Assembly (NCBI GenBank): GCA_009838525.1
Contig: VXRJ01000003.1
Coordinates: 1-64,000, forward strand
Length of the DNA stretch: 64,000 bases
DNA from: Acidobacteriota bacterium
GTDB taxonomy: Bacteria > Acidobacteriota > Vicinamibacteria > Vicinamibacterales > UBA8438
Direction: 5' to 3'
Made by a program: the position numbers and the translations under genes
Notes under the pieces: generated by a model
The model's database searches: none
What the model saw: the letters and a program-made list of their open reading frames with translations, nothing else
Told to the model about the DNA's origin: nothing
Shown: positions 49,082-64,000 of the stretch, one piece after another
Position numbering within the stretch: the first letter of the stretch is position 1
Layout: each line of letters starts with the position of its first letter

Positions 49082-51445
49082 TCACCGCTTCTCGGGTCTG
49101 GGCATGCGGTAGCCAACGCCGCGCTCATTGCAGACGTAGGCTGGGTTGGCCGCGTCGTCGCCCAGCTTGCGGCGTAGAGTCTTCACGATCGCACGTACCA
49201 GCTTCGGATCGCCGGAGCCACGGTCCCGCCTGCTCCACGCCCGGTGCAGCAGCGAGTCGTATGTCACGGTCCGGCCAGCGTCGGTCGAGAGCACGCGGAG
49301 CACCTCGTACTCCGTAACCGTCAACGTGACTGGACGGCCGGCCACGGTAACGCGGCGTTCGTCGTAGTGGATCGCCAGCTCCCCCAGCAGGAAGGCTTCC
49401 GGCTCGGCCCGTCGGCGTAGCGCCGCGCGTACTCGCGCCGTCAGCTCCGACGGTGAGAAGGGCTTGACGATGTAGTCGGCAGCTCCTGCATTCAGCGCCC
49501 TGACGATGGTCTCGTCCCGGCCGTAGGCCGAAATGAAGATGACCGGCAGATCCTCGAGCTCGCGCATCTCTTCCATCAACTCGATGCCGTCGGTGCCCGG
49601 CAGCATTAGGTCCAGCAGGACGAGCCGAGGCTTGTGCTTCCTGATGAGACCGGGCACGGCACTCGGGTCGCCGGTCACAACCGGGGCGTAGTCTGCCTCG
49701 GTGAGAGCGTCCCGAACGTACCTAAGCGTCTGCGGGTCGTCGTCTACGGCGAGGATGCACGTCTGCTCCTCCCCCTTCCGAAGTCCGCGAGGACGGCTCC
49801 GAGCGGAGCCGGTAGCCCCAGCGATGTCCTCTGCCACCGGCAGGGTGAATGTGAACCGGGTGCCCCGCCCCGCCCCGTCGCTCTCGGCCCAGATGCGGCC
49901 TCCGTGCGCCTCCACCAGTCCCTTGCATATCGACAGCCCCAGGCCGTAGCCCGCAAACCGGTGTTCCCCCTCTCCAGCGGCCGCGCCAGCATACTTCCGG
50001 AACAAATGCGGCAGACGGTCCGGCGGCACGCCCCGGCCCTGGTCGGACACCGAGATCGCCACATGCAGCCCGTCCCGCGCGGCGCCAACCCGGATCGGAG
50101 ACGACTCTGGAGACTGTCGCGACGCGTTCGAGAGCAGATTGTTGAGGACCTGAACGATGCGGCCCGGGTCGGCCATCACCCGCGGCAAGTCCTCCGCAAG
50201 GTCGATTTTCAGGTCGTGCCCGCCGCCGCTGCTGAGGAGGGTGTTCCTGGCCCGCTCCACCAGGCTTGCCACCCTCGCCGGCTCGACCGAAACCGACAGC
50301 GTGCCCGTCTCGATGCGTCCCTGGTCCAGCAGGTCGGCGATCAGGCCAAGCATTTGGTCGGCCTGTTCGTCGATGACCCGGAGAAACTGTAGCGTCTCAG
50401 CCGGGTCCGGCGCCCGCGAGGAACCCAGCAAGGCGACTGTCGAACCCTTGATCGAGCTCAGCGGCGTTCGCAGTTCGTGGCTCACCATACCCAGGAACCC
50501 GACTCGCAGGCGCTCCAGCTCCTCCAGCGGCGCCAGATCCTGCATGGTGACCACCATCGACTCGACCGTGCCGTCCGCCGACCGGATCGGCGTGGCATTG
50601 ACCAGCGTTGTGACGCTCGGGCCGTGAGGGACCGAGAGCGTAATCTCCTCGGCGCGCACCGTTTCGGCGCTTGTCAACTGCTCCGCATTCGGAAACTCCG
50701 CCAAGGCGACTTCGCGCCCGTCGCCGAAACGGCAGGTAGTCACGTCCAGCAGATCCTCCAGCGCCCGCCCCGGCACGCGCAGGCGCTCGACGATCCGTCG
50801 CGCCTCTCGGTTCAACGACACGGGGCTGCGGCTCTTACCGTCGAAGACGACAACGCCTACCGGCGAGGTCTCGACGAGAGCCTCCAGGTCGGCCCTGGCC
50901 CGCCGTTCGTCCCGGTGCGTGCGGGCGTTGGCGATCGCCGTCGCCGCCTGCGACGCGAACAGGACCAGAACCTCCTCGTCGGCACTCGTGAACTGCTGTC
51001 CGCCCTCCTTCCCGCCCAGAAAGAAGTTGCCGACGTACACATCGCGGTGGCGCATCGGCGTGCACTGCATCGCCCCTGACACCATCAGCTCCCAAGAGAA
51101 TCCGAGCTCCCTGACATAGGCTGGCAGATCGGCCACCCGCAACGACTTCCGTAGATTCCGGAAGTGCTCGAACAGCCGCGGTCCGTCGGGCCACGCAGCC
51201 ATTTTCTCGTGCTGTCCTGGCGCGAGGCCGACGGTCACGAAGTCCTGCGGCTGCCCGGCTTCATCAACCGTCGCGATCACGCCGTACCGGGCGCCGGTCA
51301 GCGCGCGGGCGTTGTCGACGATCTCCCGCAGGACGGTTTCGAGGTCGAGGCTGGCGCTGACGCGCAGGACCGCGGCGCATAGGTTCGAGATGCGGTCCTC
51401 GAGCGTCTTGATCCGTCGGCGCAACTGGTCGGGACTCTCCTGCAC
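49082..51445 (-). CDS. Hybrid sensor kinase/response regulator with DNA-binding domain
   Basis: A 787-residue one-polypeptide two-component system. Order: N-terminal coiled helix, GAF domain (about 30-170), PAS-like region (about 175-300), HisKA with VSHELRTPL (phospho-His near 323), HATPase_c (GIGL-type motifs in GYGLGLSICKGLVEAHGG), receiver domain with the phospho-Asp in RLVLLDLMLPG (near 612), and an OmpR-like winged helix ending GVGYRMPRPEKR. Such kinases usually stop at the receiver; the DNA-binding domain makes it a direct transcription regulator. No transmembrane helix is visible, so it would sense a cytoplasmic signal. GTG 51445 has GGAGG just before it. Confidence 0.85.
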   Translation of the reverse strand: MQESPDQLRRRIKTLEDRISNLCAAVLRVSASLDLETVLREIVDNARALTGARYGVIATVDEAGQPQDFVTVGLAPGQHEKMAAWPDGPRLFEHFRNLRKSLRVADLPAYVRELGFSWELMVSGAMQCTPMRHRDVYVGNFFLGGKEGGQQFTSADEEVLVLFASQAATAIANARTHRDERRARADLEALVETSPVGVVVFDGKSRSPVSLNREARRIVERLRVPGRALEDLLDVTTCRFGDGREVALAEFPNAEQLTSAETVRAEEITLSVPHGPSVTTLVNATPIRSADGTVESMVVTMQDLAPLEELERLRVGFLGMVSHELRTPLSSIKGSTVALLGSSRAPDPAETLQFLRVIDEQADQMLGLIADLLDQGRIETGTLSVSVEPARVASLVERARNTLLSSGGGHDLKIDLAEDLPRVMADPGRIVQVLNNLLSNASRQSPESSPIRVGAARDGLHVAISVSDQGRGVPPDRLPHLFRKYAGAAAGEGEHRFAGYGLGLSICKGLVEAHGGRIWAESDGAGRGTRFTFTLPVAEDIAGATGSARSRPRGLRKGEEQTCILAVDDDPQTLRYVRDALTEADYAPVVTGDPSAVPGLIRKHKPRLVLLDLMLPGTDGIELMEEMRELEDLPVIFISAYGRDETIVRALNAGAADYIVKPFSPSELTARVRAALRRRAEPEAFLLGELAIHYDERRVTVAGRPVTLTVTEYEVLRVLSTDAGRTVTYDSLLHRAWSRRDRGSGDPKLVRAIVKTLRRKLGDDAANPAYVCNERGVGYRMPRPEKR

Positions 51446-51845
51446 GTTACCCCCTCCTTGCCGGACGTGGCGCGCGAGGCATCCCGAGACGCGAGGCGGC
51501 TCCTCACGCGTTTCGTCGCCGCAGATTATTGCATACTCGCACAATAATCGTCATACGGCCTTTCACCATCTCCCAAACCTCACACACGATCTGCGATCCT
51601 TTTGGAAGTATGTCCTACAGCGTCGAGAATTGGGCCACGTTCCGGTGATTTCGCGGGCCTGTTCGGCGGGCATAGTCCTCCTCGGGGAACCTCCCGTCAA
51701 ATGGGGGTTCTCCCCCTGACCCACCCGTCGGGCAGGCCCGCACTTCGGGACATCGGGGAGAAAAGCGTGGCGCGCCCGCTCATGCCCGAGGGCTCGGCAG
51801 TCTAACGCCGCCTGTTTCTAACCTGGCAGAGGAGAGAAGCTCCAG
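51446..51845. other. 400-base gap upstream of the kinase gene
   Basis: No protein gene is supported here. Copy B of the dispersed repeat (51538-51586) lies about 95 bases before the kinase start, so it may contain the control site of that gene. The remainder has no recognised RNA gene or terminator, and the small open frames have no domain. Confidence 0.5.
51538..51586 (+). repeat. Dispersed repeat family, copy B
   Basis: CGCACAATAATCGTCATA followed by a stretch ending CATCTCCCAAA and TCACAC. It shares with copy C the pattern CGCACAA, ATC, CATA, CATCTCCCAAA and TCACAC in order, with about ten mismatches in about 45 bases. It lacks the CGCTACGCGGCCA front part. Confidence 0.5.
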
Positions 51846-52655: not shown

Positions 52656-53903
52656 TCAGGGAACGAGCGCGAACAGGACTTCCGAGCGCCCCCCGCTGCG
52701 ATGATCGCCGCGCGCGTTCACGTTGTCTTCGTTCCACGCCAGCGCGAAGCGCGAGCCGGCGGCCCGGATGGCGGGAATGAGCGACGCCGTAGGGTTGTCG
52801 GTGAGCCGGCGCGGCGCCCGGACGGGGATGCCCGCCGCCGTGAACTGCTGGAAGTACACCTCGTGGGGCCGGCCCGGCTCGGACTCGTCCGACCATGCCA
52901 ATCCGAACCGCGCGCCGTTCCAGGCGATGTAGGCGCCCAGCGATTCCCCCGCGGTGTCGGATACACGCGCCGCCACCGGCTCGATGCCGTGAGGCAGTTC
53001 CTCCTCGTCGACGACCGCGAGATAGACTTCCGCGTTCCCGTCGCGCGTGTCCCACCAGGTGACGGCGGCTCGCCCGGCGCCGAAAGCGAGGTCGGGATAA
53101 ACGGAGGATGCGCCGTCGTCGGCGCTCAGCCGATGGAGTGCCACCCGGTCACGGCCGAGGCGCGCGACGAAGAGCTCGGAAGCGCGCGTCCCCAGTTGCG
53201 CATCGAAGGCAACCCACGGAACGCCCTCGGCGTCCACGCGCAGATTCAGGTTCCACGTCGTGCGGCTCGCATCGGCGATGCGGCGCGCCGCTCCGACGGG
53301 CTCGCCGTCCAGATCGAGCTGCTGTGCCCAGATGGCGGCCGAAGGCTCTCCCTCCGCAGGCGTCCGCGGGTCGTCGGCTGCAGGCCTCCGCGAACCGTCG
53401 CTTTCCGACTCCCGCGCCTCCTCGATCCAGACGCACTGAATCCGGTCGTCGGCCGCCGCGACCACCGTCGCCCGCCCGTGGCGGCGGGGATCGGACAGCG
53501 TTCTCTCCCAGAGGGGCGCGCCGTCGGCCGTCCACGCGCCGACCTTGGCGAACGACGTGGAATCGTCTGCGGCAACTTCGTACCAGCCGACGACCAGGTC
53601 GTCCGAGACGCTCGGGCGGGAAACCGCGAGGCTCGGCTCGTACGAGCGCCCCGCGCCCGTCGTTAGTCGGTACTCCTGGGAGACCGGCCTGCCGCTTCCG
53701 TCGACGAGCCGCGCATGGATCTCCGGCAGCCCATGGCGCGTGTCATGCCACGCGATCGCGAAACCGCGGGGATGCGGCGCGAGGCTTGCTTCGTAGGCCC
53801 CACGCCCACTCCGGCTGACCTGTACGGCGTCCGACTGGGCGCCAGCGGGCGACGCGGCGGAAAAAAGAGCGGACGCCAGCAGTATGGCAACCGACGGCCT
53901 CAT
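52656..53903 (-). CDS. Exported beta-propeller protein
   Basis: A 415-residue secreted protein (signal ending ASPAGAQ). It has WD40/BNR-like strands with repeated GWYEVAADDSTSF, RIQCVWIEEARES, TWWDTRDGNAEVYLAV and FGLAWSDESE segments, predicting a propeller. No catalytic motif was recognised. It is the last gene of the minus-strand set with the CobN-like cluster, 75 bases after the CobN-family stop, so it may belong to that transcript. The 29-bp repeat lies between them. Confidence 0.7.
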   Translation of the reverse strand: MRPSVAILLASALFSAASPAGAQSDAVQVSRSGRGAYEASLAPHPRGFAIAWHDTRHGLPEIHARLVDGSGRPVSQEYRLTTGAGRSYEPSLAVSRPSVSDDLVVGWYEVAADDSTSFAKVGAWTADGAPLWERTLSDPRRHGRATVVAAADDRIQCVWIEEARESESDGSRRPAADDPRTPAEGEPSAAIWAQQLDLDGEPVGAARRIADASRTTWNLNLRVDAEGVPWVAFDAQLGTRASELFVARLGRDRVALHRLSADDGASSVYPDLAFGAGRAAVTWWDTRDGNAEVYLAVVDEEELPHGIEPVAARVSDTAGESLGAYIAWNGARFGLAWSDESEPGRPHEVYFQQFTAAGIPVRAPRRLTDNPTASLIPAIRAAGSRFALAWNEDNVNARGDHRSGGRSEVLFALVP

Positions 53904-53945
53904 TGAAGCATGTCCCCGATGCGGCGCGCGATCCGCCCTAACGCT

Positions 53946-53974
53946 GCTCGAATGCAGCGGGGGCTTCACCACGG
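53946..53974 (-). repeat. Stop-associated 29-bp repeat, copy 3
   Basis: On the minus strand CCGTGGTGAA, G, CCCCC, GCTGCATTCGAGC. It begins four bases after the TAG stop of the CobN-family gene (53979-53981). The same spacing is seen at the ligD and membrane-protein copies. Confidence 0.7.
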
Positions 53975-53978
53975 CCTC

Positions 53979-56900
53979 CTAGCCGCGCCGGCGCCAGCGC
54001 CACAGGGCGAGCAGGCCCAAAACCGGGACGCCGACCCAGAGCGGGGTCCACACGCGGTCATCCGACCCCGTGGCCGGTGGCGCGGGCAGCAGTTCGGCGG
54101 CATCCGCCGATTCCTCCATCCGGTAGCCCTCGATGTTCATCGTCGTCAGACTCGGCCGCGATTCGTTCCAGCGGACGAACTCCTCGGCCTCCGCCGCCGC
54201 GGACTCGATGTCGGCGCCGATCGCCTCCTCCATTGCCGTGCGGTAGGCCTCGAGCGCCGGACCCGGAATGTTCATCACGGCCCCCTGCTCCAGAACGTAG
54301 CGCAGCAGCCGGGGATTGCCGCAGGTGTGTGTGGAGCAGCCGACCCCGTGCGCGGCGACGCTGTCGACGTGCTCGCGGAGCAGGCGATCGAGCGTCGCAT
54401 CGTCCGCCGACCAGTACCCCTTGCGAATCGTCTCGACCATCCGGCCGGTGATGTCCTGGTAGGCGTGAGGCGAGTGCTCGTCGAAGAACGCCTTCAGGTC
54501 GAGGTCGTGCTTGTCCTCGACGTACACGGCGAACGACTCGTTCCACATCGCGTCGTCGACAGTCTCCGGCACCGTGGCGTCCCAGCCCCACAGGTACTCG
54601 ACAAACGCGCGCATCTCGCCGGCGCCGGCGTAGCCCTCGCGCTGCATCCCCTCGATCCAGACGGGGTTGACGTAGCGCGTCCGGAACTCCGCGCCGAGGA
54701 ACTTGTCGATGCCCGTCATCTCGGGCCGGCCCGGGTCGCGCGTGTTGGTGACGACCATCTGCGGGCTCTCGCCGTCGATGTTCCGGACGGCCGCCGCGAG
54801 GCCGCCCGCGTACATGAAGAAGTCGTCGTTGTCGAGGGCGCCGTAGAGCATGGTGGAGCTGCTGTGCACCACCTTCTCGGTACCGGAGAGGGCAAGACGG
54901 AACACGTCCTCCATCGGCTCGCCCCAAAATCCGTTGCCGTAGCCGTGGCCCATCTTCGACAGGTACTCGTCGGTCATCGGCCGGTCGCTGTCCCAGGTGC
55001 CGCTCGCGGCGGCGATTCGCGACGTGTTCAGGTTGAACGTCCCCGGTGGCTCGTCGAAGATGCGCACCCCGGCGCGCCTGTCGGCTTCCTCCTCCGCGTA
55101 TCCGCGGTCGATGAGCGCCGCACGCGTCGCCAGGTAGTGACGACGGACGAAGTTCTCGGCTTCTTCGAGCACCTTCACCCGCTGCACCGCTTCGTCCATC
55201 AGCCGCGTGACGTTGTTGAACATCCCCTCGGCGGCCGAGGCAATCACGATGTCCACGCGCGGCCGGCCGAGTTCGCGCGCCGGAACCACCTCGACGTCGA
55301 CTACGTTGCCGCGAGCATCCCAGACCGGGCGCGTACCGAGAAGGTGGAAGATCTGGGACTCCAGCACGCCCTCGTGCCGCATCGTCTCGGTGCCCCAGAT
55401 CACGAACGACACCTTCTCCGGGTACCGCCCGTGCTCGGCGACGTGGTCCTCCAGCATCTGGTCGGCGAGAGAGACGCCGAGTGTCCACGCGGCCGGCTTC
55501 GGCACCTTGTCGGGGTCGATGCCGTAGAAGTTCTTGCCCGTGGGGTAGGCGTCCGGATTGCGGATGGGCTCGCCCCCGTTCCCCACGGGGACGTAGCCGC
55601 CGTCGAGCGCGTGCAACAGGTGGCCGAGCTCGCGCGGCCCGGACTCCACGATGCGCCGCTCCATGTCCGCCGCCATCACCGTCGTGTCGTCCGGCAGCAG
55701 GTCGCGGTCGACCGACACGATGGCGTCCACCGTGCTCGCGCGCATCTCCGCCCCCGGCGTACGGCCGAAAGCATGCAGCCCATAAGGGATGTTCTGCCCC
55801 CGCAACTCGATCAGGTAATCCTCGATGGCGTGCAGCGTGTCGTGCTCGATCTCCGCCCCGGTCCCCAGGTCCAGGCCGAGGTCCTTGACCATCCCCAGGT
55901 CCTGCGCCTGCCGCCGGATCTCGTCCGCGTACGCCCCGGCGAGCTGCACGTTCTTGTGGACGTTGTTGTGATAGTCGTCGACGCTCTCGCTGAGCACGGC
56001 CAGCTCGGGCAGCAGCCCGCTCCTGACGAACGGCGGCACCATGTGGTCCACCAGCGTCGCCATGCCGCGGCGGCGCGCCACCAGTCCCTCCCCCACCACG
56101 TCGACGTTGTAGACGTACAGGTTGGGCAGGTCGGCGATCAGCGCATCCGGCGCGTCGGCCGCCGACAGTCCCAGGTCCTTGCCGTCGAGCCATTCGAGGG
56201 TGCCGTGCGTCCCCAGGTGAATGACCGCATCGGCGTCGAACCCGACCGGTTCGGGCGCCCGCAACCAGGAATAGGTCGCGACATACTGGTGATGCGGCGC
56301 CAGATCCTTGGCGTGATACAGCTTCTCGCCGTCCGCGCCCCACCCGCGCGCCGGCTGCGGCAGCACGGCGACGTTGCCAAAGCGCAAGGCCGGGATGATG
56401 AAGCTGCCGTCCCTCGCCATGAGGTTCACGTCCTCCGGCCTGCCCCAATCGGCGACCACCTTCTCGCGCAGCTCCGGCGCATAGCCCTCGAGCCAGCGGA
56501 GATAGTCACCCATCCAGGCGCGCGCGGCGCCGCGCCGGGTCAGCATCGCGTCGAGCTCGCCGGGGGCGTACCCGCCGACGTTCCGCGCCCGGGCGATCAT
56601 CTGATCGAGAAGCCCTTCCGACGACAGGTCGATATCGTCTCCGCCGAGGTCGTACCCGGCCGCCTGCATCCGCTGAAGGACGTTCGCCAGCGACTCGGCG
56701 ACGTTCAGGTAGCTGGCCCCTATGCCGGCCTTTCCCGGCGGGTAGTTGTAGAAGAGGATCGCCACCCGCTTCTCGGCGTTGTTGGTGGCGCCCAGCACCG
56801 CGTAACCCAACGCCCGCCGGACGGCCAGCGTGATGCGCGAGGAGATCGGCTGACTGGAGATGATGGTCAATCCCGTGTCCGGATCCGTGCGGCGTTCCTT

Positions 56901-58010
56901 GCTCCCGACGACCGTCGGCGCGACCAGCCCGGCCAGCTCCGGCGCGGCGATCTGGAACGTCCCCTCGAACATCGACAGCCCCTGCGCGGAGGCGCGCCAC
57001 TCGGCCTCGCTCCGGCCGTAGAGGCTGATCAGGCTCAGAACCGGGATGTCGAGCTTTCGCAGCGACTCGCCGGCGTCGGGGCCGGCGAAGCGGAACAGGA
57101 ACGTCAGCGCCACGTCGGCGCGCGCTGCCCCGTCCGGATCGCGGAGCAGCGTCTCGAAAGCAACGCCGGCCGGATAGCCGAAGATCGGAATCGCTTCGGC
57201 GCCCTGTCGCTCGATCTCGGCGATGATCGCATCGACGAGCGCGGTGTCTCCGTCGTCGTAGCTCGATCCGTAGAAGCCCACCGCCACTCGCAACCCACCC
57301 GGCCGGTGCTTGCCGGCGGCCCGGCGCCAGGTATCGAACGCCTCCCAGTCGGCAAACGCCCTGCCACCCGGCTCGGCGGCGTCTCCGCCCGTGCCTGGCA
57401 GGTCCGGGTAGTAGTAGCCGGCCTCCAGGCTCGGCTGCGGCTCCGGCACGTCGAGACCCGGCACGCCGGCCGCCGACAGCACGTACTTCAGCAGCCCCAC
57501 CTGGTTCGCGAATCCCGAGTACTCCCAGAACGCCCGTGCGCGGAGATCCCAGGCTACCCCGCGTTCGACGTAGTGCTCCCGTGGCAGCAGACCCTCGCCG
57601 ACGCCGAGCACGAGCCCCTGACCGGTGATCTGTTCGACAAGGTCGACGTCGTAAGTGGCGTCGAAGCGGTCGAGCGTGTGCGCGTCGTGGACGTGGAGAA
57701 CAAGCACGTCGCTACGCAGCACCTCTTCAAGATCGACAGAGTCGAGCAGCGATTCGGTAACAAGAGTGACCGAGACGCGCTCGCGCAGTCCGGGACGCTC
57801 GTCGAGCACCGCCTTCCAGGCGCTCAGGATACCGGGCAACGTGGTGTCGCCGGTGAGATACGCGAGCCGGATCTCCTGCGCCGCGGCCGAACCGGCCGTG
57901 GCGACGGTCAGCAAGGCGACGCCGGCCGCGATCCGCGCGATCCGCTTGAGCCGGCCGCTACGTCCGCAGCCGGCCGCACGCCATCGGGCATCCACAACCG
58001 CGTATTCCAT
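53979..58010 (-). CDS. Secreted, membrane-anchored CobN-family chelatase (HmuS-like)
   Basis: A 1343-residue CobN/BchH-type large chelatase subunit. Motifs: HLGTHGTLEWLDGKDLG (about 598-614), RRRGMATLVDHMVPP, WTLGVSLADQMLEDHV, ASAAEGMFNNVTRLMD and FDEPPGTFNLN. Unlike cytoplasmic cobaltochelatase it has an N-terminal signal (LKRIARIAAGVALLTVATAG, ending SAAAQ) and a C-terminal helix with an Arg tail (LWVGVPVLGLLALWRWRRRG), so it should face the periplasm. There are no CobS/CobT partners. In Bacteroidota such proteins (HmuS) sit with TonB-receptor, ExbB-like and DUF2149 genes and are reported to remove iron from haem. The same partners occur here, so haem dechelation fits better than B12 synthesis. 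ATG 58010. Confidence 0.9.
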   Translation of the reverse strand: MEYAVVDARWRAAGCGRSGRLKRIARIAAGVALLTVATAGSAAAQEIRLAYLTGDTTLPGILSAWKAVLDERPGLRERVSVTLVTESLLDSVDLEEVLRSDVLVLHVHDAHTLDRFDATYDVDLVEQITGQGLVLGVGEGLLPREHYVERGVAWDLRARAFWEYSGFANQVGLLKYVLSAAGVPGLDVPEPQPSLEAGYYYPDLPGTGGDAAEPGGRAFADWEAFDTWRRAAGKHRPGGLRVAVGFYGSSYDDGDTALVDAIIAEIERQGAEAIPIFGYPAGVAFETLLRDPDGAARADVALTFLFRFAGPDAGESLRKLDIPVLSLISLYGRSEAEWRASAQGLSMFEGTFQIAAPELAGLVAPTVVGSKERRTDPDTGLTIISSQPISSRITLAVRRALGYAVLGATNNAEKRVAILFYNYPPGKAGIGASYLNVAESLANVLQRMQAAGYDLGGDDIDLSSEGLLDQMIARARNVGGYAPGELDAMLTRRGAARAWMGDYLRWLEGYAPELREKVVADWGRPEDVNLMARDGSFIIPALRFGNVAVLPQPARGWGADGEKLYHAKDLAPHHQYVATYSWLRAPEPVGFDADAVIHLGTHGTLEWLDGKDLGLSAADAPDALIADLPNLYVYNVDVVGEGLVARRRGMATLVDHMVPPFVRSGLLPELAVLSESVDDYHNNVHKNVQLAGAYADEIRRQAQDLGMVKDLGLDLGTGAEIEHDTLHAIEDYLIELRGQNIPYGLHAFGRTPGAEMRASTVDAIVSVDRDLLPDDTTVMAADMERRIVESGPRELGHLLHALDGGYVPVGNGGEPIRNPDAYPTGKNFYGIDPDKVPKPAAWTLGVSLADQMLEDHVAEHGRYPEKVSFVIWGTETMRHEGVLESQIFHLLGTRPVWDARGNVVDVEVVPARELGRPRVDIVIASAAEGMFNNVTRLMDEAVQRVKVLEEAENFVRRHYLATRAALIDRGYAEEEADRRAGVRIFDEPPGTFNLNTSRIAAASGTWDSDRPMTDEYLSKMGHGYGNGFWGEPMEDVFRLALSGTEKVVHSSSTMLYGALDNDDFFMYAGGLAAAVRNIDGESPQMVVTNTRDPGRPEMTGIDKFLGAEFRTRYVNPVWIEGMQREGYAGAGEMRAFVEYLWGWDATVPETVDDAMWNESFAVYVEDKHDLDLKAFFDEHSPHAYQDITGRMVETIRKGYWSADDATLDRLLREHVDSVAAHGVGCSTHTCGNPRLLRYVLEQGAVMNIPGPALEAYRTAMEEAIGADIESAAAEAEEFVRWNESRPSLTTMNIEGYRMEESADAAELLPAPPATGSDDRVWTPLWVGVPVLGLLALWRWRRRG

Positions 58011-58020
58011 ACCGCACCTT

Positions 58021-58353
58021 TCAGTCGGGCACGTAGACGACCTGTCCATCGGCCAGGCGATAGGCGGTGCCGAGGCGCTCACCCTGTCCCCCGAGCGTCT
58101 CGCCGGTCAGCTCGTAGGCTGTGATCTCGGTGCCCCGCTTGACGATGATCTCGCTCAGGCCATCGGCGTTGGTCTTGACCAGCGTCACCTCGCTCTCCGG
58201 ATTGACCAGATCGCCGATGCGATAGACGGAAAAGAGCGTGATCATCAGGCCGACGATGAACACCACCGACACGTCGAAGATGTTCGCCACGCCGGAGAGC
58301 GGATCCTCGTCTTCCGCGTCAGCGGGCGACGGCAGATGCAGAAAGCGTCCCAT
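58021..58353 (-). CDS. DUF2149 membrane protein (HmuV-like)
   Basis: A 110-residue protein with the family blocks DPLSGVANIFDVSVVFIVGL (one transmembrane helix, about 24-48) and the C-terminal GTAYRLADGQVVYVPD. DUF2149 proteins appear with CobN-like and ExbB-like genes and probably act like ExbD in an energising complex. It overlaps the ExbB-like gene by 35 bases, and the CobN-like gene follows 10 bases after its stop, so all belong to one operon. The start ATG at 58353 is clear. Confidence 0.9.
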   Translation of the reverse strand: MGRFLHLPSPADAEDEDPLSGVANIFDVSVVFIVGLMITLFSVYRIGDLVNPESEVTLVKTNADGLSEIIVKRGTEITAYELTGETLGGQGERLGTAYRLADGQVVYVPD

Positions 58354-59005
58354 GGTGTCGTTCCTCCGGCGCGATTCCGCTCAGCGCGTCCCGCGCGAGC
58401 TCTCCGGCAAGGCGCTCGGCCAGGAACCGCTGCTCGCGCACAAACTCGTTGACCCAGCCGTGGCGCACGATCTGTATGACGTAGGCAATCGTCCCGGCCG
58501 CGAGGCCGACGATGGTCGTCGTGAAGGCGACGACCATCTGACCCGCCATCGCTTCGAGGTTGCCGGCCGTCAGCGAGGCCAACGCCGTCCCCATGGGAAT
58601 CAGCGTCCCGAGCAGGCCCAGGCTGGGCCCCACCTTGACCAGCAGCCGCGACCCGTTCAACGTGCGCCGGACCCGCTCCTCGCGCTCCAGAACGAGGTGC
58701 TCGAGACCACCGTCGGAGAACGACGGCTTGTGGCGTTCGGCCTCGACGTCACGGAGCAGGCGGCGGAGCGGCGCCGGCAACGCCGCACGACGCCCGGCGT
58801 CGGCGCCCAGCACCGAACCGGCATCCAGCCACGCGTTGAGGTCGAAGCCGCTGCGCTCCCGCCGCCGGGCGAGCCATTCCATCACGCATCCGCCAGCCAT
58901 GAAGACCGCCGCCGCCACCGCGACCCAGAGCATCGCGATCACCGGGAAGCGCAACACCTGCGCCAGAGCGAACAGGCCGTTCTCGAGGGTTCCGAGCAGG
59001 CTCAC
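58319..59005 (-). CDS. MotA/TolQ/ExbB-family proton channel (HmuU-like)
   Basis: A 228-residue membrane protein: N-terminal helix FPVIAMLWVAVAAAVFMAGG, a cytoplasmic part, then two helices GPSLGLLGTLIPMGTAL and MVVAFTTTIVGLAAGTIAYV. The glycine-rich GPSLGLLGTLIPMG is typical of TolQ/ExbB/MotA, which use the proton gradient to drive a partner. GTG 59005 makes a GTGA overlap with the upstream stop, so translation is coupled. It is expected to power the TonB-receptor pathway or the chelatase complex. Confidence 0.9.
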   Translation of the reverse strand: MSLLGTLENGLFALAQVLRFPVIAMLWVAVAAAVFMAGGCVMEWLARRRERSGFDLNAWLDAGSVLGADAGRRAALPAPLRRLLRDVEAERHKPSFSDGGLEHLVLEREERVRRTLNGSRLLVKVGPSLGLLGTLIPMGTALASLTAGNLEAMAGQMVVAFTTTIVGLAAGTIAYVIQIVRHGWVNEFVREQRFLAERLAGELARDALSGIAPEERHHGTLSASAVAR

Positions 59006-59574
59006 CCGCGCCTCCGGAGCGTGTGCAGACCGCCGAATGCAACGACTGCGGCGAACCCCAGGACTACGCCTGGATGCACGGAGGGCCTGACCATGTCTCC
59101 TGCAGCGAGGTTCATCCCCTGGGCCGCGCGCCATCCTCCGGCTACCCCCGGAGCGGCGGCGACGGCCAGTCCCAGCACGCCGAGTGCGGCCAGCGCGTCC
59201 TCACGGACCGAGCGCGCCGCAAACCCTGCATCGCGTGCCGCGGAAACGGCTGCAAGGGTGACGACACCCGCCGCCAGCAGGCACGCGAGCCACAGCGGCA
59301 GGCCGTAGCCGTCCAGCACCCTGCTCCATAACCCGCCTGCCGTTCCGGCGACCAGCGGAGCCACCAGCGATGCCGGAACTCCTCGCGGACGAACGAGCGA
59401 CAGGCCGGCAGCGGCCGCGACGAGCACGCCGGTCCATCCCGGATCCGGGCGGAGCCAGGCGCTGCCGATCAGGAATCCGGCCGCCAGCGCCAGGGCGCCG
59501 TAGCGGTCCCGCGCCTCGGTCGCTAAGACCGAAGCAGCGAGCGCGCACAACAGACCGACGGCATGTAGCGGCAA
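59002..59574 (-). CDS. Small polytopic membrane protein (HmuT position)
   Basis: A 190-residue membrane protein with about six hydrophobic helices (HAVGLLCALAASVLATEA, WTGVLVAAAAGLSLV, LWLACLLAAGVVTLAAVSA and others). No domain is recognised. It is the first gene of the operon and takes the place of HmuT, a membrane protein of unknown role. Start is probably TTG at 59574, since no ATG or GTG precedes the first helix in frame. It overlaps the ExbB-like gene by four bases. Confidence 0.65.
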   Translation of the reverse strand: MPLHAVGLLCALAASVLATEARDRYGALALAAGFLIGSAWLRPDPGWTGVLVAAAAGLSLVRPRGVPASLVAPLVAGTAGGLWSRVLDGYGLPLWLACLLAAGVVTLAAVSAARDAGFAARSVREDALAALGVLGLAVAAAPGVAGGWRAAQGMNLAAGDMVRPSVHPGVVLGFAAVVAFGGLHTLRRRG

Positions 59575-59653
59575 AATGAAGAAGCCCCGGGAAATCGGCG
59601 TGTTCGGACAGTCGCCTCACTCTATACGAGCGCCCCGAACGACGCCGTCGACT

Positions 59654-59694
59654 TTCAGGAATTCTTCAGGAACTCTTCAGGAACTCTTCAGAAC
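59654..59694. promoter_or_regulatory. 11-bp tandem direct repeats upstream of the TonB receptor
   Basis: TTCAGGAATTC (59654-59664), TTCAGGAACTC (59665-59675 and 59676-59686) and the partial TTCAGAAC (59687-59694) are joined head to tail. An 11-base period places each unit on the same face of the helix, as in direct-repeat boxes of OmpR/PhoB-type regulators. The array lies 120-160 bases before the receptor start and 80 bases before the divergent hmuT-like gene, so it could control both. Confidence 0.6.
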
Positions 59695-59812
59695 GGCGCT
59701 ACGAGCACTCGCTACACTCCGTTTTCGCGTCGAGTCTTCTACGTCAGCAGCTTGGCATCGCCTGGGTTTCCACACGTCGGCGCCCCCGTCGTCGACCCAG
59801 AGGAAGGACATC

Positions 59813-62176
59813 ATGACGACCCGGTATTCCGCCCTACTCGGCATTCTGCTGTGTTCGCTTGCCGTCGCTCCCCTCGGCGCCCAGGAGTCGACGATCGTGG
59901 CCGGCACGGTCACCGACTCGTCCGGCGGGGTCCTGCCAGGCGCCACCATCGAGGCGCTCCGCGGGCTGCGGGTGATTTCGACCGCGACCGCCGGGGCTGA
60001 CGGACGGTTCCAACTGGATCTGCCCTCGGGCGAACGCTATCGCGTGACGGCGCGACTCGACGGATTCGCGGCCGGCGAGATCGATCTCATTGCGGCCGAC
60101 GACGCGACCGCCGACTTCCGGCTCGGCATCGCCCCGCTGACCGACACGGTCGTCGTCACCGCGTCACGGACCGCGGAGGGGAGCGCGTCGGTCATGGATT
60201 CCCACTCGGTCTTCACCGAGGACGACATCGAGACGCTCGGAAGCCACTCTGTCGCGGACGTCCTGCGCTACGTGCCCGGCCTGAACATCGAGTCGACCGG
60301 GCGCGAAGGCCAGCTTGCATCGGTCTTCGCGCGCGGCGGCGAATCGGACTACAACCACGTGATGATCGACGGCGTCCGCGTGAACGCCAACGGCGGCTAC
60401 TACGACTTCAGCCGCGTCTCGGCCAACGAGATCGAGCGGGTCGAGGTGGTGCGGGGCGCCCAGTCGGCGCTCTACGGCTCGGACGCGATCGGCTCCGTCA
60501 TCCAGATCTTCACGAAGCGGGGAGCGCCGGACAGCGGCCCGGGGCTGGCCGGCTCCATCGAGGGAGGCTCGTTCGGGACCGCCCGCGGCGACCTGCGGGT
60601 GCTGGGCGGCGCCCAGCAGCGCGTCGACTACCAGCTCGGCGTCGCCTACCGCGGAACCGACGGCGCGTTTGGGGACCGCCTGACGGAGCGCGACCGCTTC
60701 GATCAGCATTCGATCGACGGCAACGTCGGCGCGATCATCGGTGACAGCACCAGGCTGCGGACCGGGTTCCGCTACAGCAACGCCCGCGCCAACTCCGTCG
60801 GCCCGATCACCTACGCGCCGGGCGACACCGGCACCGGCTACGACACGGACGACCTGACCTGGCACCTCGACTTCGACCAGACCCTCTCCTCGCGCATCGA
60901 CCATTCCGCAACCGTGAGCTACTTCCGATCCGGGCGCGAGTCCGTGGACGCCATCGGCGATCCGCAATACCGCGTCTTCGCGATCCTGGAAGGAACGCCG
61001 GGCGCGCTCTATCCGGCCGGGCCGCGGCTGGTACGGTTGCTGGACCAGGCGGCATTCGACACATTGGCTGCCGATCCTTCCAGTCTCGGCGCCGGCCAGT
61101 TCCTCGCACAGACCGGCCCGTTCAGCGGCTTCGACTGGCCCTTCGAATTCGAGGCGCAACTGCGGCGGCCCGCCGCCCGCTACCAGCTCAACGCGATCTG
61201 GATGGGTAACCAGGTCCTGAGCGCCGGGTATGACTACTACAGCGAGACCAATGCACTCGACGAGTTGCAGACGGTGGCGAACCACTCCTACTTCGTACAG
61301 CAGCAGTTCAACGTCGCCGACGCCTGGTTCGTCACCGCCGGGACGCGTATCGACGACAACGCCCACTACGGCGCGTCGGTCAATCCGAAGCTGTCGGCAG
61401 GAGGGTACCCGCTGCCCTTCCAAGAGGGCCCGCTCTCGTCGCTGAAGGTGTCGGCCAACATCGGCCGCGGCATCAAGAACCCGAGCTTCTCGCAGCTGTA
61501 CAGCTCGCAGTGGGTCGACGGAAACCTGTTGCTGCTGCCGGAGGAGGCAGTTACGGTCGACGCGGGCGCCGAGCTCACATTCGACGACCAGCGCTGGCTC
61601 GCGAGCTTCACCTGGTTCAACAACAACTACGAGAACCAAATCGCCTATTCACCCTCACCCGGCTTCGGGGGCGACGGCCTGCCCGACTACGTCAACATCG
61701 ACGGGTCGCGCGCCGGCGGCATCGAGTTCGAGTTCGGCCTGCAGCGGCCGATCGGCGGGCTCACCGCGAACGCCTCCTACGCCCTCGTCGACACCGAGGT
61801 GGTCACCAACGTCAGCACCAGCCAGCAGTTCCAGCCCGGCCAGCCGCTGCTGCGCCGGCCGCTGCATTCCGGCAACCTGCGCGTCGGCTACACGCGGGGG
61901 CGCGGCAGCCTGAACCTGAACCTGCGGGTGGTGGGGAACCGGCACGACAGTGCGTTCCTCGGCCTCGTGCGCGCCTCGGATGGGCGCAGCGTCGACATCA
62001 CCGTCAATCCGGGCTACACGCTGCTCACTCTCGGCGGACAGTTCCGCGTGCACCAAGACCTGACGCTCTTCCTGCGGATCGACAACGTGACGGACGAGAT
62101 GTACGACAGCGCGCTCGGCTACCCGGCCCTGCCGCGTGCGGTGGTCGCCGGCGGACGCTTCAACGTCGGCGGCTGA
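59813..62176 (+). CDS. TonB-dependent outer-membrane receptor (HmuR/BtuB-like)
   Basis: A 787-residue receptor. Signal (ending PLGAQ), a carboxypeptidase-regulatory-like segment (VAGTVTDSSGGVLPGATIEA, about 30-110), a plug domain (SVFTEDDIETLGSHSVADVL; VEVVRGAQSALYGSDAIGSV) and a 22-strand barrel ending VDITVNPGYTLLTLGGQF and RIDNVTDEMYDS. The ligand cannot be read; haem or a related tetrapyrrole is inferred from its divergent position next to the CobN/ExbB/DUF2149 genes, B12 being the alternative. ATG 59813 has AGGAAGGA before it; upstream in-frame starts would run through the repeat array. Confidence 0.9.
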   Translation: MTTRYSALLGILLCSLAVAPLGAQESTIVAGTVTDSSGGVLPGATIEALRGLRVISTATAGADGRFQLDLPSGERYRVTARLDGFAAGEIDLIAADDATADFRLGIAPLTDTVVVTASRTAEGSASVMDSHSVFTEDDIETLGSHSVADVLRYVPGLNIESTGREGQLASVFARGGESDYNHVMIDGVRVNANGGYYDFSRVSANEIERVEVVRGAQSALYGSDAIGSVIQIFTKRGAPDSGPGLAGSIEGGSFGTARGDLRVLGGAQQRVDYQLGVAYRGTDGAFGDRLTERDRFDQHSIDGNVGAIIGDSTRLRTGFRYSNARANSVGPITYAPGDTGTGYDTDDLTWHLDFDQTLSSRIDHSATVSYFRSGRESVDAIGDPQYRVFAILEGTPGALYPAGPRLVRLLDQAAFDTLAADPSSLGAGQFLAQTGPFSGFDWPFEFEAQLRRPAARYQLNAIWMGNQVLSAGYDYYSETNALDELQTVANHSYFVQQQFNVADAWFVTAGTRIDDNAHYGASVNPKLSAGGYPLPFQEGPLSSLKVSANIGRGIKNPSFSQLYSSQWVDGNLLLLPEEAVTVDAGAELTFDDQRWLASFTWFNNNYENQIAYSPSPGFGGDGLPDYVNIDGSRAGGIEFEFGLQRPIGGLTANASYALVDTEVVTNVSTSQQFQPGQPLLRRPLHSGNLRVGYTRGRGSLNLNLRVVGNRHDSAFLGLVRASDGRSVDITVNPGYTLLTLGGQFRVHQDLTLFLRIDNVTDEMYDSALGYPALPRAVVAGGRFNVGG

Positions 62177-62217
62177 TCGCGCGTCTCAGGGCTCCGAGGC
62201 ACACGGAGATCATCAAC

Positions 62218-63414
62218 TTGAGCCCGCTCGACCGTTCGGGCCCGTTGCGGCGCGTGCTGTTCCAGGTGCACCTCTGGATCGGCGTGGCGGCTGCGCTCTA
62301 TGTCCTCGTCGTCTCGGTGACGGGAGCCGCTCTGGTCTTCCGCATCCACCTGCAGCGCGCCGTGCACCCGGAACTGCTCACGGCGCAAACCGACGGCCCG
62401 CAGGCGGACATGGCGACCGTCCTGGAACGGGTGCGGGACGCCTACCCGCAGGGGCGGCTGGTCGGCGCCGATTCGCCGACCACCGTCCGGCCGACCCATC
62501 TCGCGTACGTCACCGAGGACAGCGGGTTCCATACCGTGCTCATCGACCCGGTCACCGCCGACGTGCTGGGCGAGCTGCCCGAGCACTCGGTGATACGTAC
62601 CCTCCAGGATCTGCACTTCGACCTGCTCGCCGGCCGCACCGGTCGGGTGGTCAACGGGGTCGGGGCGCTCTGCCTGCTCCTGCTCTGCGCCACCGGCCCG
62701 TTCATCTGGTGGCCCGGCCGGGCGGGATGGCGGCGCGGCTTCACTGTCGACTGGCGCCGGCCCTGGAAACGGGTGACCTGGGAGCTGCACGGCGCGGTGG
62801 GCATCTGGACGCTCGTTCTTACCGCCGGCTGGGCCGTCACCGGGGCCTACTTCGTATTCCCCGACGAGTTCCGCGCGGCGGTCAACCGGATCTCGCCACT
62901 GAGCACGGTCACTGCGCCGCAATCGAGTACCGACGGCGCCGCCTACGAACCGCGCCCGAGTTGGCGCGAGATGATCGAACTCGCCCGACCGGCGGAACCC
63001 GACGCCTTCGTCGCGAGGGTCGTCCTGCCTGCGACCGACGAGGCGGCTTTCCAGGTGCTGTTCACTGACCGGCAACCCACACGGCTGGGCATACGCCATC
63101 TGCGGACGGTCTACCTCGACCAGTACACCGGCGAGCGGCTCGCCACGCCAGCGGCGCCCGCTCCCACGCTCGGCGACAACGTGATGGCCTGGATCGGCCC
63201 GCTGCACTTCGGAAACTTCGGAGGACCAGGCATCCGCGCGGTGTGGCTCGTCGCCGGCCTGGCGCCGGGCCTGCTGGCGGCAACCGGCCTCATCTTGTGG
63301 TGGACCCGCGTAGTCGCGCCCCGGTGGCGAGGCCGGCGAGTACCGGAGGCCGAGATGCAACCGCTGCACGCGAGTCGCGCCGGTGACGGAGGACGTAAGC
63401 AGGCGAGCGCATGA
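62218..63414 (+). CDS. PepSY-associated transmembrane protein (reductase-like)
   Basis: A 398-residue inner-membrane protein with four helices (VLFQVHLWIGVAAALYVLVV at the start; ALCLLLLCATGPFIWWPG; WELHGAVGIWTLVLTAGWAV; GLLAATGLILWWT at the end) and PepSY-like loops. Conserved His residues in FQVHLW, DLHFDLLAG, ELHGAVG and GPLHFGNFGG suit haem b binding, as in the PiuB/FoxB group that reduces ferric siderophores. It follows the receptor by 41 bases. TTG 62218 is the probable start, with CGGAG upstream. It may reduce iron or haem brought in by the receptor. Confidence 0.85.
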   Translation: MSPLDRSGPLRRVLFQVHLWIGVAAALYVLVVSVTGAALVFRIHLQRAVHPELLTAQTDGPQADMATVLERVRDAYPQGRLVGADSPTTVRPTHLAYVTEDSGFHTVLIDPVTADVLGELPEHSVIRTLQDLHFDLLAGRTGRVVNGVGALCLLLLCATGPFIWWPGRAGWRRGFTVDWRRPWKRVTWELHGAVGIWTLVLTAGWAVTGAYFVFPDEFRAAVNRISPLSTVTAPQSSTDGAAYEPRPSWREMIELARPAEPDAFVARVVLPATDEAAFQVLFTDRQPTRLGIRHLRTVYLDQYTGERLATPAAPAPTLGDNVMAWIGPLHFGNFGGPGIRAVWLVAGLAPGLLAATGLILWWTRVVAPRWRGRRVPEAEMQPLHASRAGDGGRKQASA

Positions 63415-64000
63415 GAGGAACCGTGAATCGGATGCAGGGACCCGTGGCGGGCAACGCGCTGTCGACCACGGAACGGCGACACCTGTTGCGCCGTCTCGCC
63501 TTCACGGCGACTCCGGACCTGGATCGGGCCATCCAGGGGATGTCGGCGGACGAGGCCCTGTCGGTGCTCGTGCGCGCGGCTCGAGACGCGCCGTACCCGC
63601 AGGCCCCGGAGGCTGCCAGCGGGATCTGGAGGAACCCGGCTCTGCGATTCGACGGCCTGTCCGACGAGGACTTCGAGGCGATCGCCGACCGGCAGGCGGA
63701 ACGCGCGCGGGCCGCGACCGGGGAAGTGCGCCGGTGGTGGCTGGCGGAGCTGCTTACCTCCCCGGCCCCGCTGCGCGAGAACCTCGTCCTGTTCCTGCAT
63801 GGCGTGTTCGGCAGCAACACGGGCTCGGTCGACGCCCCGCACGCGCTTCACGGACGCAACGCCCTGCTCCGCCGACAGTGTCTGGGCACGGTCCCGGATC
63901 TGCTCGCGAGCCTCGTCGTCGACCCGGCCATGATGATCCAGGTCGGGATGGACGGGCACCGGCGGCTGCGTGTATCCGATCGTCCCGCCAAGCTCATTCT
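63411..64000 (+). CDS. DUF1800-family protein, 5' part
   Basis: The window ends inside this gene; about 196 residues are present and the frame stays open to the edge. It starts at ATG 63411 (alternatives 63423 GTG, 63432 ATG), overlapping the PepSY stop by four bases. Blocks such as LLRRLAFTATPDLDRAIQ, RRWWLAELLTSPAPLRENLV and FLHGVFGSNTGSVDAPHA are those of DUF1800 proteins, usually encoded next to a DUF1501 gene. DUF1800 function is unknown. It was missing from length-limited gene lists because it runs off the end. Confidence 0.8.
   Translation, partial: MRGTVNRMQGPVAGNALSTTERRHLLRRLAFTATPDLDRAIQGMSADEALSVLVRAARDAPYPQAPEAASGIWRNPALRFDGLSDEDFEAIADRQAERARAATGEVRRWWLAELLTSPAPLRENLVLFLHGVFGSNTGSVDAPHALHGRNALLRRQCLGTVPDLLASLVVDPAMMIQVGMDGHRRLRVSDRPAKLI

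Follow-up and report, generated by a model that had tools for sequence, protein, structure and literature searches.

The 64,000-nucleotide stretch of DNA analysed here (the window) encodes a variant of the BtuS type, a second kind of CobN-containing system for which there are published hints in B. fragilis and T. lovleyi. On balance, the system is best read as the Hmu architecture used for corrinoids instead of haem. A link to corrinoids is likely and is supported by the gene set, the separate clade of the chelatase, a corrin-type residue in its sequence, and the association of relatives with cobalamin riboswitches and B12 genes. Two look-alike systems that annotation merges as "CobN" or "Hmu" are thereby told apart, and haem and corrinoid copies can be distinguished by three sequence tests: the His/Asp site, the receptor type, and the riboswitch. 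This result conflicts with a published proposal (PMC10100974) in which HmuV (DUF2149) serves as a diagnostic marker for haem transport. The question of what an exported CobN does without CobS/CobT (PMC3403914) also becomes testable.

Gene layout and conserved neighbours

The genes for a small membrane protein, ExbB, DUF2149, and a CobN-family chelatase form one operon, divergent from a TonB-dependent receptor and a PepSY gene (Table 1). The first-pass annotation had described this anatomy, and the Pfam families matched it, with E-values of 2e-299 (CobN-Mg_chel), 2e-28 (DUF2149), 3e-12 (MotA_ExbB), and 6e-59 (PepSY_TM), and with both plug and barrel for the receptor. It had also called the operon overlapping; the single operon holds, but the ORF overlaps shrink to near-contact because of refined start sites (likely ATG for cobN, GTG for exbB, and ATG for the receptor). 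A fifth operon gene, encoding a W-D repeat protein, and a DUF1800 gene were absent from its list. The chelatase appears secreted, as proposed, since it carries an export signal (...KRIARIAAGVALLTVATAGSAAAQ). It also appears C-terminally anchored, through the segment WVGVPVLGLLALWRWRRR, which was read by eye; a Kyte-Doolittle scan at a threshold of 1.6 gave no segment for this protein. ExbB and DUF2149 both lie near cobN in 29 of the 39 loci compared, a co-occurrence far beyond chance.

Table 1. Features of the window and the hmu-like locus of the host genome
Feature	Coordinates	Strand	Basis or remark
Secreted W-D repeat protein, 3' of cobN	52656..53972	-	Conserved position in 9 loci
cobN-family chelatase (BtuS-type, class I subunit, periplasmic)	53979..58010	-	ORF opens 58082; Pfam CobN-Mg_chel, motifs, clade
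DUF2149 (HmuV-like), one TM helix with invariant Asp	58021..58353	-	Pfam PF09919; alignment
ExbB/MotA/TolQ proton channel	58319..59005	-	ORF opens 59134; Pfam PF01618; start sites
Small multi-pass membrane protein, HmuT/DUF2162 position	59002..59574	-	Hydropathy; family alignment; hhalign
Direct repeats, 4 x 11 bp, (C)TTCAGGAACT, divergent promoter	59653..59692	+	OmpR-type operator candidate
TonB-dependent receptor, BtuB-like	59813..62176	+	ORF opens 59576; Pfam; TIGR01779 best NCBIfam; tree
PepSY_TM membrane protein, possible haem-b reductase	62173..63414	+	Pfam PF03929
DUF1800 protein, overlaps PepSY stop, cut by window end	63411..64000	+	Pfam PF08811
hmu-like locus, host contig 31 (L004 = G000 contig 31, 80000-99000)	L004:6701-18180		

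The same families make up HmuRSTUV of Bacteroidota (HmuS 9d26; PMC12583661), which likewise combines an exported and anchored CobN-family protein with a TonB receptor, a small membrane protein, ExbB, and DUF2149, and in which the haem de-chelation chemistry of HmuS is established (PMC12583661). The Hmu-like family set and the periplasmic placement recognised earlier are supported. The window differs in that no HmuY is seen, the His254-Gly-Arg site is missing, Asp replaces His1209, the chelatase belongs to a separate clade, and the receptor is BtuB-like. The small membrane protein has four hydrophobic segments and is kept beside cobN in relatives; it has no Pfam match and no similarity to DUF2162 in hhalign.

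The W-D repeat gene starts 7 bp downstream of cobN and encodes a secreted protein whose conserved W-D motif recurs at intervals of about 55 residues. It directly follows cobN in Acidobacteriota and Gammaproteobacteria, often with a lipobox, and has no Pfam family. Its fold might, as a guess, be a beta-propeller. BtuG, a seven-bladed B12-binding propeller (PMC6143338), serves as an analogy only; there was no sequence match to it, and the sole hit was a weak one to CylK (E 0.003). The DUF1800 gene is also found near cobN in two related loci (L007 and L042).

The divergent promoter contains a double TTCAG repeat that is unique in the genome, which speaks against a wider regulon. Similar 11-bp TTCAG repeats occur at receptors in L007, L008, L054, and L091. 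Elsewhere in the window (49082-51544, - strand) lies a gene whose product, read from the sequence, joins a sensor kinase to a receiver and a DNA-binding domain of the OmpR type, with relatives in L043 and, weakly, in L008. This protein is a candidate binder of the repeats.

Affinities of the chelatase and receptor

The window chelatase has 1367 residues, compared with 1469 in B. theta HmuS, and by sequence score it is equidistant from HmuS (9d26, 445 bits), CobN (7c6o, 443), and ChlH (387). Three groups of HmuS features were compared: Met79 and His254-Gly-Arg of the haem site between head and neck, His1209 in LSLDHxxEFMGG, and His538 in HFG(T/A)HG. The His538 motif is retained in the window (HLGTHGTLEW, following the HxGTHG pattern of HmuS) and is common to nearly the whole superfamily. 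His254-Gly corresponds to a gap or Phe in the window chelatase and its relatives, whereas the alignment around Met79 in the head domain is uncertain. At the His1209 site, the window reads LDNDDFFMYAGG; all 24 members of its family have Asp there. Asp is also found in 11 of 12 CobN sequences, and His in all four HmuS and all three BchH sequences. Among the sequences sampled, His thus appears to mark porphyrin enzymes and Asp corrin enzymes. In the BtuS of L008 (L008:10070-14110), the motif reads HLGTPG, with Pro at the equivalent of the catalytic His538, which is either an error or a sign of an inactive copy.

In a tree of 43 sequences, BchH, CobN, HmuS, and the window family fall into separate groups. 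HmuS forms its own clade with 100% support, and the window family falls outside it. In the CobN group, two label changes arise from a single long branch, that of Marinobacter. The window chelatase and the riboswitch-linked members form one clade, with a support of 93 when the long Pseudoalteromonas branch is included and 99 when it is not. The earlier expectation that the protein would stand apart from CobN was borne out, but it does not group with HmuS either. An AlphaFold model of the chelatase (pLDDT 77, pTM 0.63) aligned better with CobN 7c6o (Z 44.7) than with HmuS 9d26 (Z 37.2), a closer match that is supporting but not decisive. The CobNST cobaltochelatase (7c6o, 9fpc) shares the fold and the corrin-side Asp motif, but it is cytoplasmic and driven by the AAA+ CobST, whereas the window chelatase is exported.

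The receptor had been proposed to import haem, which its affinities do not favour. Its best NCBIfam model is TIGR01779 (BtuB) at 221 bits, a score below that model's cut-off of 599.7, and the haem model reaches 129. In the receptor tree, it belongs to a clade with 100% support that contains the riboswitch-linked receptors of L008, L046, and L057 together with that of L054, where a riboswitch precedes a btuD-btuC-btuF-receptor run. A PepSY protein 66% identical to that of the window is encoded beside this operon, and the pairing of receptor and PepSY gene noted in the first pass is real. Riboswitch-btuD-btuC-btuF-receptor runs, with receptors akin to the window's, occur in two acidobacterial loci, L054 and L087.

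Cobalamin linkage in relatives and in the host genome

A cobalamin riboswitch (RF00174) lies at most 5 kb from cobN in 11 of the 28 genomes that contain the family, against 0.21 expected, although these genomes are not independent; at least four lineages are represented by our count. The riboswitch directly precedes the adjacent receptor in Acidobacteriota (L008, whose CobN is 80% identical to the window chelatase), Gammaproteobacteria (L015, L018, and L042), and anammox planctomycetes. In the first two groups, it controls the divergent receptor, not cobN. In the anammox loci, tandem riboswitches are followed by a receptor-cobN operon, which in L023 and L033 comes after CbiMNQO, a CobD/CobC-like gene, and CobQ, and encodes the receptor, a DUF4430 protein, CobN, ExbB, and DUF2149. 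DUF4430 resembles the C-terminal domain of transcobalamin. In the window, no cobalamin riboswitch was found at the gathering score or up to an E-value of 1, and none was found in its nearest relative, L007. The window copy is therefore not shown to belong to a B12 regulon. A receptor grouping with BtuB and linked to a B12 riboswitch or pathway, which the first pass had named as refuting its haem reading, is largely what the analysis shows, though through relatives.

Two published loci resemble that of the window. The Trichlorobacter lovleyi plasmid pSZ77 (PMC3403914) shares the receptor, ExbB, DUF2149, and a CobN-like protein of the window clade (support 99), the role of which was called unknown (PMC3403914). 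T. lovleyi is a B12 producer, its whole operon (receptor-DUF2162-ExbB-DUF2149-CobN) stands behind two riboswitches, and DUF2162 replaces the small membrane protein. Neighbouring plasmid genes encode cobyric acid synthase, CobT, BzaF, CbiM, and CbiN. In B. fragilis, where the CobN-like type was named BtuS (PMC6460266), a Hmu-like operon with a cobalamin riboswitch was noted (PMC10100974). By description, the BtuS1 operon shares the Hmu-like operon type and a predicted exported CobN-like protein (PMC6460266, PMC10100974), but it is tied to the riboswitch. The window copy lacks this element, its receptor gene is divergent, and a PepSY gene is present.

The host genome encodes exactly two CobN-family proteins. 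The second (contig 31, L004:9316-14118) scores 1259 bits to HmuS 9d26, compared with 445 for the window protein, and carries LSLDHxxEFMGG. Its locus contains a receptor whose best score is haem-type, HmuS, a PQQ/Kelch-repeat protein, a HmuT-like membrane protein, ExbB, and DUF2149, and these sequence features identify it as the hmu-like locus of the genome. Both chelatase types occur together in several relatives (e.g., G001 and G027). Near the hmu-like locus, L004:3691-4638 (- strand) encodes a CbiX-domain protein, a member of the class II chelatases, that appears to carry a signal peptide.

A genome-wide search of the host found neither CobT_C nor CbiC, so the reported absence of CobS/CobT and B12 biosynthesis genes extends to the whole genome for those tested. 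CbiC is also absent from all acidobacterial and gammaproteobacterial relatives tested. Elsewhere in the host, one riboswitch precedes a periplasmic binding protein (BtuF) and an ABC ATPase (L044, where a PepSY gene is close by), and another precedes a BtuB-type receptor and a PduO-type adenosyltransferase (L045). Given the missing CbiC and CobT and these uptake genes, the host looks B12-auxotrophic, and destruction of corrinoids for cobalt is therefore unlikely there.

Possible function and energy coupling

We infer that the BtuB-like receptor would bring a corrinoid into the periplasm, where the chelatase, anchored in the inner membrane, would bind it in a cleft equivalent to the corrin site of CobN. 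The PepSY protein might first reduce the central metal, which the chelatase would then remove or exchange. Whether the chelatase acts on the central metal in this way is an even call. The main alternative, rather unlikely in our estimate, is a relay without chemistry, in which the CobN fold takes the corrinoid off the receptor and hands it to BtuFCD or the small membrane protein, and ExbB-DUF2149 powers release. Such a relay would suit B12 producers and auxotrophs alike, the hosts have BtuF/ABC genes, and in the chelatase model the head/neck is similar to periplasmic binding proteins. However, the equivalents of His538, Glu577, and Asp1209 are retained across almost the whole window family, and a pure binder would not need them.

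HmuS-like recovery of iron from haem, the function first proposed, is improbable. The family set matches that of hmuRSTUV, and PepSY proteins are often haem-b reductases. In addition, growth on haem iron is impaired in B. fragilis double mutants of btuS1 and btuS2 (PMC6460266). Against haem as the substrate stand the missing His254-Gly-Arg site and His1209, the separate clade, the BtuB-type receptor with riboswitches in relatives, and the separate hmu-like locus with its haem-type receptor in the same genome. That the system scavenges cobalt for B12 synthesis de novo, stripping it from corrinoids for uptake through CbiMNQO, has very little probability. CbiMNQO is encoded beside cobN in anammox bacteria, and the T. 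lovleyi plasmid carries genes for CbiM and CbiN, but CbiC is missing from the host and the relatives tested, so the idea could hold for producers only. A literature search on cobalt removal from corrinoids found no paper. Annotation pipelines call such proteins CobN, and the Pfam match is strong, but the conventional role in the cytoplasm, as the cobaltochelatase of aerobic B12 synthesis, is hardly credible for an exported, anchored protein that scores under every CobN equivalog cut-off and lies outside the CobN clade, in a genome without CobT and CbiC.

The corrinoid use of the Hmu architecture is the best reading overall, somewhat more likely than not. Counting against it are the lack of a riboswitch in the window and L007, the riboswitch-linked BtuB and BtuF/ABC genes that the host already has, the non-significant homology of DUF2149 to ExbD, the Pro at His538 in L008, and the haem-iron defect of the B. 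fragilis mutants (PMC6460266).

In the corrinoid reading, the chelatase would be powered by protons through a motor of ExbB and DUF2149, in place of the ATP-driven CobST/ChlID, which cannot work outside the cytoplasm. That the motor works on the chelatase is a tentative proposal, falling somewhat short of even. It is favoured over a motor acting on the receptor because several loci, including that of the T. lovleyi plasmid, contain separate ExbB-ExbD-TonB sets alongside ExbB-DUF2149, and because DUF2149 is also found in Methanosarcina, an organism that lacks an outer membrane. The broader idea, that HmuS and BtuS systems alike contain a periplasmic class I chelatase driven by the proton-motive force, with ExbB-DUF2149 replacing the AAA+ CobST/ChlID and powering the removal or exchange of the metal of corrinoids, is speculative and doubtful. 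Should ExbB-DUF2149 indeed power the chelatase, this would add a new form of energy coupling to tetrapyrrole metal chemistry. As an ExbD homologue, DUF2149 gave a non-significant hhalign P of 0.058, with the TM Asp alone aligned. The AlphaFold model of DUF2149, with a pLDDT of 63, is too weak for a structure search, and the family is rare in the phylum, with 5 of 297 genomes above the cut-off.
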